Below, piece by piece: positions 45,127 to 51,098 of a DNA stretch of 64,000 bases; position 1 is the stretch's first letter, and every line of letters starts with the position of its first letter. Made by a program: the position numbers and the translations under genes. Under the pieces are notes generated by a model that saw nothing but the letters and a program-made list of their open reading frames with translations, made no database searches and was not told the DNA's origin. Origin of the DNA: Desulfobulbaceae bacterium. GTDB taxonomy: Bacteria > Desulfobacterota > Desulfobulbia > Desulfobulbales > Desulfobulbaceae. The DNA is taken from positions 1-64,000 of the forward strand of contig JABMJC010000002.1 in the NCBI GenBank assembly GCA_013201405.1. Reading direction: 5' to 3'.

Positions 45127-46932
45127 ATGACCCTATTTTCCGCCCAAGAGGCAGCCAAGGCCACTGTTAAGGAGGCGGCCGATATTGTCGAGGTTATCGG
45201 CGAGCACGTTGCCCTGAAAAAAACCGGGACGCGCTACACTGGCCTGTGTCCTTTCCACGGGGAAAAAACCCCATCCTTTTCGGTGAATCCCCAAGGGCAA
45301 TTCTATTACTGTTTTGGCTGTGGCGCTTCAGGAGATGTTTTCTCCTTTGTCATGCAGTTCCATCACCTCGATTTTCCCGAGGCACTCAAACAGCTGGCCG
45401 CCAAATACCGCATTGAGCTGCCTGAGCGGCAGTTGAGCGAGGCGGAGCAGGCTCGGCTGCGACTGCGTGAACAACTGTATGCAGTGCACGAGGCCGCGGC
45501 CCAGTGCTATGAACAAACCTTGGTCGATACCCGCTTGGGGGCGCAGGCACGGGAATATTTGCGTCAGCGGGGGGTGCCAGATGAGGCCATCTCCCACTAT
45601 CGCCTCGGTTTTGCACCAGATCCAGCGGCAGCTGGCTGGGATTATCTAGCCCGCAATCTCTGTGGGCAAGGCTTTGCCGCTGAGCTGCTTCTGCAGGCTG
45701 GTCTGGTTTTGAGCGGCAAGAGGGGCGGTCACTACGACCGCTTCCGCAGCCGAGTGCTGTTTCCTTTAGAGGACATGAGCGGCCGCATCACTGCTTTTGG
45801 TGGCCGTATCTTGGGAGAAGGCCAGCCCAAGTACATGAATTCGCCGGAGAGTTTGATTTTCAGCAAAAGCCGTCAGCTCTTTGGCCTGTATCCGCACCGG
45901 GAGGCCATCCGCACAACACGGCGTGTTTTGGTGGTGGAAGGCAACTTCGACCTGCTTTTACTGGCCGTGCATGGCATCGACAATGTGGTGGCACCCCTGG
46001 GCACGGCCCTGAGTCGTGAACATGTCCATTCCCTGAAAAAATACTGCGATGAGGTGGTTTTGCTCTTTGATGCCGATGCGGCTGGGCTTAAGGCAGCCAT
46101 GCGTAGTATTCCCTTTTTTTTGGAAGAGGCCCTGGACGGCTTGGTGGCGCTTTTGCCCAAGGGCCATGATCCAGATTCCTTTGTGCGGGAGCAGGGCCGC
46201 ACTGCTATTGATTCCCTGGTGGATGGGGCCCTGCCCCTGGCCGAATTTGTCCTGGGCAACCTGATTGGCGAGCACGGTCTGACGCTGGATGGCAAAGGGC
46301 GCATCGTGGAAGAACTCAAACCGCTCATCCAGGCCGCGACCAAGCGTGAGCAGCGTGAGCTGATGGTCTCTCATTTTGCCGCAAAACTTGGCGTTTCTGC
46401 CAGTTATTTCAATAGCGGCAAAACTGGCCCTGTCCCAAGTGCTCCGCCCACAGATCCAGGCCCGACTACTGTTGCTCCCTTGCAAACCCTTGGTAGACAG
46501 GAAAAGCAACTGTTTGATTTTTTGTTGTTCTGGCCAGAATATTGCGGCCCTTTGCAAGAAGCCGGTTTAATTGAGGTAGTGCGTAGCCCAGCCCTGCGGC
46601 GCATGTTGGAGTTGATGGAGGCCCATGGCGCAGCCACAGCCAGTCAGCCGGAATATCTTCTGGCTGCACCGCTGGAGCCTGAGGAGCGAGCCTATGTCAT
46701 CGCCCGTTTGATGCAGCCGGCACCCTTGGCTGCTGGTGGGCCGGATACGACTCCCCAGCTCATGTTTGATCAACTGCTGGTATGGGTACGCCAGCAGCGT
46801 CAACGGCAAAATGCAGCCAGCCTGCAGCAGCAACTGCAGGAGGCGGAACAGGCCGGAGACAACAAGCGGGTTTGGGAGCTTTTGCGGATCAAACAACAGG
46901 GCAAAAAACAAAGGGGTGATCCTTCCCCCTGA
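45127..46932 (+). CDS. dnaG: DNA primase DnaG
   Basis: YTGLCPFHGEKTPSFSVNPQGQFYYCFGCGASGDVFSF zinc ribbon; GGRILGEGQPKYMNSPES; VVEGNFDLLLL Toprim. Confidence 0.97.
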   Translation: MTLFSAQEAAKATVKEAADIVEVIGEHVALKKTGTRYTGLCPFHGEKTPSFSVNPQGQFYYCFGCGASGDVFSFVMQFHHLDFPEALKQLAAKYRIELPERQLSEAEQARLRLREQLYAVHEAAAQCYEQTLVDTRLGAQAREYLRQRGVPDEAISHYRLGFAPDPAAAGWDYLARNLCGQGFAAELLLQAGLVLSGKRGGHYDRFRSRVLFPLEDMSGRITAFGGRILGEGQPKYMNSPESLIFSKSRQLFGLYPHREAIRTTRRVLVVEGNFDLLLLAVHGIDNVVAPLGTALSREHVHSLKKYCDEVVLLFDADAAGLKAAMRSIPFFLEEALDGLVALLPKGHDPDSFVREQGRTAIDSLVDGALPLAEFVLGNLIGEHGLTLDGKGRIVEELKPLIQAATKREQRELMVSHFAAKLGVSASYFNSGKTGPVPSAPPTDPGPTTVAPLQTLGRQEKQLFDFLLFWPEYCGPLQEAGLIEVVRSPALRRMLELMEAHGAATASQPEYLLAAPLEPEERAYVIARLMQPAPLAAGGPDTTPQLMFDQLLVWVRQQRQRQNAASLQQQLQEAEQAGDNKRVWELLRIKQQGKKQRGDPSP

Positions 46933-47195
46933 CATGCCGGGATCAATTCTTGCAGTATATTGAAAATAATGTACGATTTTAAGGAGATGTTTCAATAGAT
47001 CCAAGGCTGTTTTTTGTTTGTAAGGCAGTGCGACCTTTGCCGCTTTTTTTGCAACAATGGGAAAGCAGGTAAGCAGGGCGGGGTGAATATGATGAATGCC
47101 CAATCGCCGCAGGATAATCGTCGCGGTTCTTCAGCCCTTGGAATGGGGTAAAACATCGTGCCAGACATGATCGCCGCACTGGCAATAACCGGTGT

Positions 47196-47318
47196 CAGGT
47201 TGATCGCCGCTGCTTCAATGTGACCAGGGAGCGTATCCGTCAAATCGAAGTGCAGGCTTTGAACAAATTGCGGCATCCCTCCAGAAACAAGAAGCTGCAG
47301 GAGCCGTGTCTGGAATAG
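47196..47318 (+). pseudogene. rpoD: Remnant of rpoD (sigma-70 region 4.2, C-terminus only)
   Basis: Frame ending TAG 47316-47318 translates as …[34 protein letters not shown], matching the RpoD C-terminus; no upstream sigma domains in frame; lies directly after dnaG where rpoD often resides. Confidence 0.85.
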
Positions 47319-47548: not shown

Positions 47549-48667
47549 TTGATCTGCCCGGATGCACAAGAATGGCTTACCCTGCAGTTCTTGCCGGGGC
47601 TTGGCTGCCACAGTATCTCCCGGCTGGTGGAGGTCTTGGGTTCTGCCCGGGCTGTGCTTGAACATGGTAAGGAAATAGGTACTCATTGTCCGGGGATCCG
47701 GCCAGGACTTGCGGCCCTGTTAGGTGATGACACAGCCCTTGCTCTGGCCAGGGAAAAGGCGATGCGTGAACTGGAACACATCGAGCGCCGGGGCGTATCC
47801 CTGATTTCCTGCACCTGTGCGGAGTATCCGTCTGTTCTGCAAGATATTGCCGACAAACCGATTTTACTCTACCTAAGGGGAAAAGTAGCGCGTTTGCGCG
47901 AGCCGATGTTGGCTGTGATTGGCGCCAGGAGTGCCAGTGAATACGGGCGACGGGTGGCCAAACGCTTTGCCGCTGCCGCAGCAGAGCGGGGTTTGGTGAT
48001 TGTTTCCGGTGCAGCCTACGGTATTGATGCGGCTGCACACCAGGGGGCCTTGCAGGTACGTGGGAAAACAGTTGCTGTGCTGGGTTGCGGAGTGGACGTG
48101 GCCTATCCGGCTGCGCATAGGCGTCTTTTAGAGGAGATTGTCACAGATGGTGCGGTGCTTTCCGAATTTCCACTGGGCAGTAAACCAGAGGCTTTCCGCT
48201 TTCCCATCCGCAACCGGATCATCAGCGGCTTGGCCAGGGCGGTGTTGGTGGTCGAAGCCAGTGAGAAATCAGGTTCCCTGATCACGGCCCGTCTGGCCCT
48301 GGATCAGGGCAGGGAGGTGATGGCTGTGCCTGGGCGCATCGATTCCGTAAAAAGTAGCGGTGCACACTGGCTTATCCAGCAGGGGGCAACCCTGGTGCAA
48401 CGGATTGAGGATGTTTTTGAGGTGCTTGCCTGGCCCGGGGCTGGATTTTCCTCGGTACAGGGCGAAAACAATGGCACAGGCACTGCTCTGCCATCTGAGG
48501 CGGAGCAGGTGCTGCGGGCCCTGGATGCCTATCCTGCGGACATTGACGCATTGGCACAGGCAAGCGGGCTGAGCCTCACCACCTTGCAATCCCTTCTGCT
48601 GACACTGGAGTTGCAAGGTCTTGTGCGGCAACTGCCCGGACAACTGTATGAAAAAGTGTTTGTTTGA
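47549..48667 (+). CDS. dprA: DNA processing protein DprA/Smf
   Basis: AVIGARSASEYGRRVAKRFAAAAAERGLVIVSGAAYGIDAAAHQGAL…VLGCGVDVAYPAAHRRL…FPIRNRIISGLARAVLVVEASEKSGSLITA; TTG start preceded by GGAGGA. Confidence 0.93.
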   Translation: MICPDAQEWLTLQFLPGLGCHSISRLVEVLGSARAVLEHGKEIGTHCPGIRPGLAALLGDDTALALAREKAMRELEHIERRGVSLISCTCAEYPSVLQDIADKPILLYLRGKVARLREPMLAVIGARSASEYGRRVAKRFAAAAAERGLVIVSGAAYGIDAAAHQGALQVRGKTVAVLGCGVDVAYPAAHRRLLEEIVTDGAVLSEFPLGSKPEAFRFPIRNRIISGLARAVLVVEASEKSGSLITARLALDQGREVMAVPGRIDSVKSSGAHWLIQQGATLVQRIEDVFEVLAWPGAGFSSVQGENNGTGTALPSEAEQVLRALDAYPADIDALAQASGLSLTTLQSLLLTLELQGLVRQLPGQLYEKVFV

Positions 48668-48793
48668 ATGGTATTCTGCTTCGCCTTGCCCGCGTGCTGG
48701 CGTCTCTAGCGTCGTCCTTTTGGTGCTGAGGCGTTTAGACTAGCCATGCTGGTTTATATGTATGCTCACATGTATTACCCAGAGGAATCAACC

Positions 48794-49498
48794 ATGATGG
48801 ATCTGCCGGAAATGAGACGATATATGATCGCGCCTTCCATTCTATCTGCGGATTTTTCTCGTCTGGGCGAGGAAATCCAGGCGGTTGAGCAGGCAGGCGC
48901 AGACTGTATCCATGTTGATGTTATGGATGGGCATTTTGTGCCCAACATCACCATTGGACCGCTCGTTGTTGCAGCTGCGCGCAAGGTGACCAAGCTGCCG
49001 CTTGACGTGCACCTGATGATTACCGACCCGGACAGATATGTACCAGATTTTATTGCCGCCGGTGCTGACTGGATCAGTGTGCATGTGGAGACCTGTCCCC
49101 ATCTGCACCGCAGCCTTGGCTTGATCAGAGATGCGGGTAAAAAGACCGGAGTGGTACTCAATCCGGCCACGCCTCTGTGCAGTTTGGATCATGTCCTGGA
49201 TATGGTGGATTTTGTCATGTTGATGAGCGTCAATCCAGGATTTGGCGGCCAATCATTTATTCCCTCATCTCTGGAAAAAATCAGTGCCCTGCGGACGCGA
49301 TTGGATACAGTCAATCCTGCTGCGGGCATCGAGGTGGATGGTGGCATTGGCCCGGCCACCATTGGTGCGGTGGCAGCGGCAGGGGCCAATATTTTTGTTG
49401 CGGGTTCGGCAATTTATGGGCAGAGCGTCTACGAAGGCGCGATCAGTACCATGAAAGAAAATATCAGGCAGGCAGGAGGGCAAGGCTATGCGGTATAA
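48794..49498 (+). CDS. rpe: Ribulose-phosphate 3-epimerase
   Basis: [45 protein letters not shown]…[14 protein letters not shown]. Confidence 0.96.
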
Positions 49499-51098
49499 AG
49501 ATTTTTCTGCGCTGACCACGGTGGCAAGGCTGACCGGGCTTGCCAGGCACCCCTACGACCTGACCCGGCCGGAAGCACTTTCGCCTGCTCGACTCCAGAG
49601 CTGTAAAAGTAGCGCTTGCGGCTTTGATTTGCTGTATGCCACCGAGCGGCTTGATGATGAGGTGCTGGCTGCGCTGCAAGCACTTGCCGATGAGGCGGAG
49701 CTGGTTGAGCAGTTCATGTCCATGAAAAGGGGGGCAGTGCTGAACCGGATAGAAGGCTTTGCCAGCGAGGAGCGACAAGTACTCCACACGGCTTCCCGGG
49801 ATATTTTTACGGAGCAGCCCCATTATCCCGAGGCCACGGATAAGGCCAAAAAAGAGCTGGAGAAGTTGCGCCTTTTTTTGGAGGACTTGGCCTCCGGCAC
49901 CCTGGTCAATGCCAATGGCGAGCCCTTCACCACCTTAGTACAGGTGGGGATCGGAGGCTCAGACTTGGGGCCAAGGGCCCTGTCCTTGGCTTTGCAGGCC
50001 TATACCCTGCCCGGCAGGGAAGCCCGTTTTATCGCCAATGTAGACCCGGATGATACAGCGGCCATTCTTGACGGCCTGGATCTTGGCCGCAGTCTTTTTG
50101 TGATCGTGTCCAAAAGCGGTACCACCCTTGAGACACTGACCAATGAGGAACTGGTGCGCACGGCCCTTGTCCGCGCAGGCCTGGAGCCCAAAGAGCATCT
50201 TTTGGCGGTCACCGGCCAGGGCAGCCCCATGGACGATTCCAGCCGCTACCTGGCTTCCTTCTACATGTACGATTACATTGGCGGCCGCTATTCAGCCACC
50301 TCCATGGTGGGCGCTCTTACCCTTGGTTTCATCCTGGGTTATGAGGCACTTTTAGAAATCCTGCGCGGCGCCTGGGAGATGGATGTTGTCGGCGAACAAA
50401 CAGATATTCGCAAGAACCTGCCCCTGCTCATGGCCTTGATCGGTGTCTGGAACCGCAACTTTCTTGGATGCACCACCTGCGCCATTTTGCCCTACAGCCA
50501 GGCCTTATCCCGTTTTCCTGCACACTTGCAACAGTGTGATATGGAAAGCAATGGCAAGTCTGTCACTCGCCAGGGACATGCGGTCGAATGGAAGACCGGG
50601 CCAATCATCTGGGGCGAGCCAGGGACCAACGGCCAGCATGCCTTCTACCAGCTCATCCACCAGGGCACCGAGATCGTTCCCGTTGAATTCATCGGTTTTC
50701 GTCGCAATCAGCGTGGACTGGACATTGAGGTGGGCCAAACCAGTTCGCAGCAGAAACTCGTTGCCAATATGCTGGCCCAGTCCCTGGCCCTGGCGCAGGG
50801 TAAGGAGGATGCCAATCCTGCACGGCGTTTTCCCGGCAACCGACCAAACCTGGTGCTCATTGCCGAGCAGCTCACTCCATACCAGATGGGCGCCCTGTTG
50901 GCCCTGTATGAGCATCGTATCGCTTTTCAGGGTTTTTGTTGGAATATCAACTCATTCGATCAGGAAGGGGTGCAGTTGGGCAAGGTCTTGGCAACAAAGT
51001 TGCTGCATCTTCTTGCAAATAGAGACAAAAGCGCTCCTGCACAGGTGCGGACATCCACTGTGGAGGAGGCCTTGCTGCAAGAGGCGGGCATGCTCTAG
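49488..51098 (+). CDS. pgi: Glucose-6-phosphate isomerase
   Basis: [70 protein letters not shown]; overlaps rpe by 11 bp. Confidence 0.96.

Follow-up and report, generated by a model that had tools for sequence, protein, structure and literature searches.

The dnaG-dprA junction

The window (the whole stretch of 64,000 nucleotides that was analysed) comes from a genome of 2.46 Mb, available as a draft of 185 contigs that is 99.99% complete, and the locus of interest sits on a 74.8-kb contig with conserved flanking gene order. The named records closest to the dnaG of the window belong to Desulfobulbus and other Desulfobulbaceae, and the order of the relatives compared below is taken to be Desulfobulbales, which are sulfate reducers. 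The features of the locus, with the evidence for each, are as follows.

45127..46932, + strand: dnaG (DNA primase), intact, 601 aa, the upstream partner in the dnaG-rpoD-dprA arrangement also found in relatives (ORF)
46939..46981, + strand: non-coding stretch 3' of dnaG, kept before the dead gene, 81% to the relative G005 (blastn and alignment with the nearest relatives)
47089..47210, + strand: rpoD pseudogene, retained 5' end, ~45 codons, with a frame slip at ~47136-47150 (alignment with G005 and G014)
47206..47210, + strand: internal deletion junction, GCCGC (alignment; codon comparison)
47208..47318, + strand: rpoD pseudogene, retained 3' end, i.e. the region 4.2 helix-turn-helix, C-terminus and stop codon (Pfam/NCBIfam, genome search, codon comparison)
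47549..48667, + strand: dprA, intact (ORF; homology to relatives)
48746..49498, + strand: rpe (ribulose-phosphate epimerase), next in the conserved neighbourhood (ORF; gene order in relatives)
49488..51098, + strand: pgi (glucose-6-phosphate isomerase), next in the conserved neighbourhood (ORF; gene order in relatives)

The longest dprA frame opens at ATG 47447, and homology sets in only from ~residue 34 of this long ORF; the true start is probably TTG 47549, located behind GGAGG.

The initial annotation had described the sequence behind dnaG as the tail of an RpoD (sigma region 4.2) with no intact ORF over it, and Pfam, NCBIfam and a genome-wide profile search all bear this out. The 36-residue frame at 47208-47318, which ends in a stop codon, scores above the cut-off of Pfam Sigma70_r4 (1.4e-7, 31.3 bits) and matches RpoD-type models of NCBIfam down to ~2e-12; the whole-genome search with TIGR02393 returned the match at 47211-47303 (1.3e-8), and none of the ORFs of the region around the tail is an intact sigma factor. 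The tail is real, but it is not all that is left of the gene, as had been supposed: the 5' end is kept too, and it is the middle that has been deleted. Alignment with the intact genes of the two nearest relatives, G005 and G014, places 47089-47210 on the first ~45 codons, and this retained 5' end runs directly into the tail at GCCGC, a 5-bp repeat common to both ends of the deletion. A single internal deletion has removed ~435 codons (1.3 kb), which correspond to regions 1.2 to 4.1. The second lesion, a one-base frame slip inside the retained 5' part, splits the latter over frame 0 (18 residues) and frame 2 (22 residues), where a relative reads GIERRAQYDRRISNDRRQGDRR, and parts the start codons from the rest of the gene.

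In the codon comparison with G005, third codon positions account for 16 of the 26 differences in the tail. This bias suggests that most of the divergence probably built up before the deletion, in a functioning gene, and that the loss is recent. With RpoD similarity, the genomic place of the ortholog and disabling lesions all found together, which are the three marks of an RpoD pseudogene, the remnant is the ancestral dnaG-linked rpoD (hereafter D) in its original place, turned into a pseudogene by internal deletion and frame slip. An origin from a mobile element or phage was rejected, phage and plasmid records giving no match, and so was an RNA feature in the dnaG-dprA gap, for which Rfam gave no match.

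The junction in related genomes

Outside the order, too, rpoD commonly sits behind dnaG. Within the order, dnaG-rpoD-dprA is intact in G005, G014 and G020, and rpoD-dprA in G015; the intact D of relatives is ~500-570 aa long and lies between dnaG and dprA, and it is in place in the relatives examined with an uninterrupted contig at the locus, outside the lineages of loss. As an intact sigma gene occupies the ancestral dnaG-dprA position in relatives, the remnant in the window is an in-place pseudogene rather than a stray fragment.

The synteny comparison also revealed further lineages of the order without D at the dnaG-dprA junction. One family (f4; five genomes in four genera) has no D: dnaG directly adjoins dprA in G026, G144, G145 and G146, and D is absent behind dnaG in G147. 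In G180, of another family, dnaG likewise adjoins dprA without D. The loss is therefore not peculiar to the window genome, and apparently D was lost three times independently, the window genome included. Several of the cases without D show dnaG and dprA overlapping by a few bases; at L237, L238, L240, L241 and L242 (family f4 and G180) the two genes abut or overlap, a clean loss without remnant.

G010, a single-contig relative, was not counted as a further loss. Its D gene (L040, ~4239) has one apparent one-base frameshift, which may be a sequencing error or a very recent loss, and this one-base gap stands alone in an otherwise 95% identical D protein. G086 and G087 were not counted either, as contig ends cut off their D genes.

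The remaining sigma factors and the comparison of P with D

Only two proteins with sigma region 2 (PF04542) are encoded in the window genome, i.e. an RpoH-like protein and an RpoD-like paralog of 448 aa, hereafter P, which lies on contig C43 (5551-6897) in front of genes resembling the futalosine menaquinone pathway. No match to a FliA or ECF factor was obtained in the 2.46-Mb genome. The whole-genome search found neither a second copy of D nor any other D fragment. With D dead and only P and the RpoH-like protein left, we infer that P must serve the housekeeping promoters here, if the assembly is complete. The view that a functional primary sigma factor has to be encoded elsewhere has thus held up, while the routes proposed for it, relocation, duplication or recombination, have not. 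Relocation is rejected in the absence of a second D in the genome, and a recent duplication of, or recombination with, the C43 gene is rejected by a deep split in the tree and by the mere 38 bp (at 84% identity) that P and the remnant have in common; the intact rpoD expected elsewhere was not found. P belongs to an ancient separate lineage that extends across the order and that relatives carry alongside an intact D.

P contains regions 1.1, 1.2, 2, 3 and 4, in this order, in one protein. Region 1.1 is recognized by Pfam in P (3.8e-12), whereas D gives no match. A region 1.1 HMM built from the other RpoDs of the phylum, 29/33 of which it matched (many of these being its own training set), matched all main-lineage P proteins of the order and 0 of 36 D proteins, so that the intact D of relatives lacks the region by which an RpoD primary sigma factor is told. 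Against TIGR02393, the RpoD equivalog of NCBI, P scores 316 bits, below the 354-bit cut-off, and hence is not counted among the RpoD orthologs; with TIGR02394 (RpoS, cut-off 378.7 bits) P reaches 257.7 and D 279.7 bits, both below, and P was therefore rejected as an RpoS. Main P is identical in region 2.3/2.4 in every genome of the order sampled, and RERIRQIE is retained in region 4.2; it thus has the conserved -10 and -35 recognition residues of group 1. D is variable (T/N/H/L/A/S) at the residue that corresponds to T440 in the numbering of E. coli sigma70, the four relatives nearest to the window genome having H or L. Extra P-like sigma copies without region 1.1 occur in two genomes of the order, G032 and G034 (L168 and L171).

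The two proteins also differ in their rates of evolution. Among 18 genomes of the order, P shows the higher conservation in 153/153 pairs, with mean identities of 78.6% for P versus 54.6% for D, and tree distances of 0.50 versus 1.88, i.e. ~3.8 times longer for D; the mean identity of ordinary RpoD in the wider phylum is 68.7%. The dN/dS ratio ranges from 0.01 to 0.06 in P and from 0.05 to 0.20 in D, and is lower for P wherever both could be computed, synonymous sites being near saturation in several pairs. Purifying selection still acts on the D of relatives, which must therefore have some function.

In the tree, P forms one clade (100/99), some basal branches of which are long and of unsure placement, and D forms another (100/99), which falls within ordinary RpoD next to E_G108 and E_G136. 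The ordinary RpoDs of G108 and G136 (L217 and L219), which are outside the order, also have no region 1.1 by the HMM, L219/E_G136 being cut by a contig end, and region 1.1 is present in the P of both genomes. The displacement of D discussed below may predate the order. The survey of the order took in 164 genomes that are 90% complete or more; only four gave no match to P, all at most 92% complete (90-92%), including G146, which matched neither P nor D; the missing matches are likely due to genome incompleteness.

A proposed displacement of D by P and its alternatives

Compared with the group 1 factors (RpoD/SigA: E. coli RpoD, TIGR02393, PRK05658), P is alike in regions 1.1-4, and among proteins of solved structure it comes closest to RpoD, but it falls outside the RpoD clade of the phylum, has no detectable non-essential region (Sigma70_ner) and remains under the NCBI RpoD cut-off. 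Both the tree and the gene order make D and the remnant orthologs of ordinary RpoD, but D differs in lacking region 1.1. In this lack, and in that some lineages can dispense with it, D resembles RpoS and other group 2 factors. It differs from them in holding RpoD's place behind dnaG and in having regions 1.2 and 2 separated by a long insert; D and P both score below the RpoS cut-off. Burkholderia has alternative primary sigma factors and Cupriavidus a second RpoD; these contain all RpoD domains and exist beside an ordinary RpoD, and replacement under special conditions has been suggested there (PMC2194791, PMC2864759). The ordinary RpoD is kept in those organisms, whereas here the ordinary one (D) would have been demoted and lost, with the extra one (P) better conserved and present in nearly all genomes of the order. 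Our search of open-licence papers found nothing direct on rpoD loss with takeover by a paralog, or on the primary sigma factors of this group.

The domains, rates, recognition residues and pattern of loss together argue that P was already primary order-wide. We consider it likely, taking the explanation as a whole, that D is a pseudogene in the window genome, that the housekeeping role has passed to P, and that D, accessory and dispensable, was deleted. We hold it probable too, with a little less assurance, that P displaced D across the order, perhaps in the sister lineages of G108 and G136 as well, and that D lost region 1.1, turned accessory and was lost at least three times independently, here recently. 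The housekeeping role would then have been handed from the ancestral RpoD to its ancient paralog before region 1.1 of D was lost, and the deletion would have come last. P would direct the bulk of transcription, its region 1.1 guarding the free protein, its region 2.3/2.4 opening and reading the -10 element and its region 4.2 reading the -35 element. D, once without region 1.1, would have become an accessory, group-2-like factor, which in the reduced genome of the window was presumably dispensable and could be deleted, leaving P and the RpoH-like protein. Speaking against this reading are the purifying selection on D in relatives, the score of P under the NCBI RpoD cut-off, the draft state of the assembly and the four genomes that gave no match to P.

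A different history, in which D had been primary up to the very recent past and P, a stress-type sigma factor, took its place in the window genome only, seems improbable. It would agree with the ancestral place that D keeps behind dnaG, with the score of D, which is nearer to classical RpoD across most of the order, and with the changes unique to P, of which there are 14 in the window genome versus 2 in its sister G014, a ratio more skewed than that of rpoB (38 versus 27) or dnaG (50 versus 54). These counts make a mild recent acceleration of P in the window genome possible; however, the changes lie mostly in linkers and the amino-terminal half, and leave region 2 and region 4.2 almost untouched. 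Furthermore, P is the slower and more uniform protein in every pair tested, also where D is intact, region 1.1 is in P and absent from D, and a whole family and G180 are also without D.

We regard it as very unlikely that the deletion is an assembly or amplification artefact, i.e. a chimeric join or a collapsed repeat where a full rpoD is present. The genome is a draft of 185 contigs, and the 5-bp repeat at the junction could be used by artefactual joins too; but the frame slip is a separate second lesion in the retained 5' part, no other D fragment exists in a genome that is 99.99% complete, the gene order around the locus is as in relatives, and other lineages have lost D as well. It is hardly credible that the remnant is a functional mini-gene for a short region 4.2 helix-turn-helix peptide binding -35 elements, for although region 4.2 is nearly intact and its differences from relatives are mostly silent third-position changes, such changes are equally expected from the time before the deletion as a normal gene, the frame slip cuts the start codons off from the tail, and a good start or ribosome site is missing from the tail frame.

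Bacterial transcription is usually pictured with the primary sigma factor as a fixed and essential hub, for which the dnaG-rpoD linkage serves as marker. If the displacement of D by P is true, even the primary sigma subunit can be swapped, its job being passed to a paralog and the original discarded. The steps of such a swap, i.e. the loss of region 1.1, the drift of the -10 contact and the deletion, would be testable, since relatives with both factors, with a demoted D and with none coexist in this group. In practical terms, what annotations of this order label "rpoD" behind dnaG is probably not the housekeeping factor.
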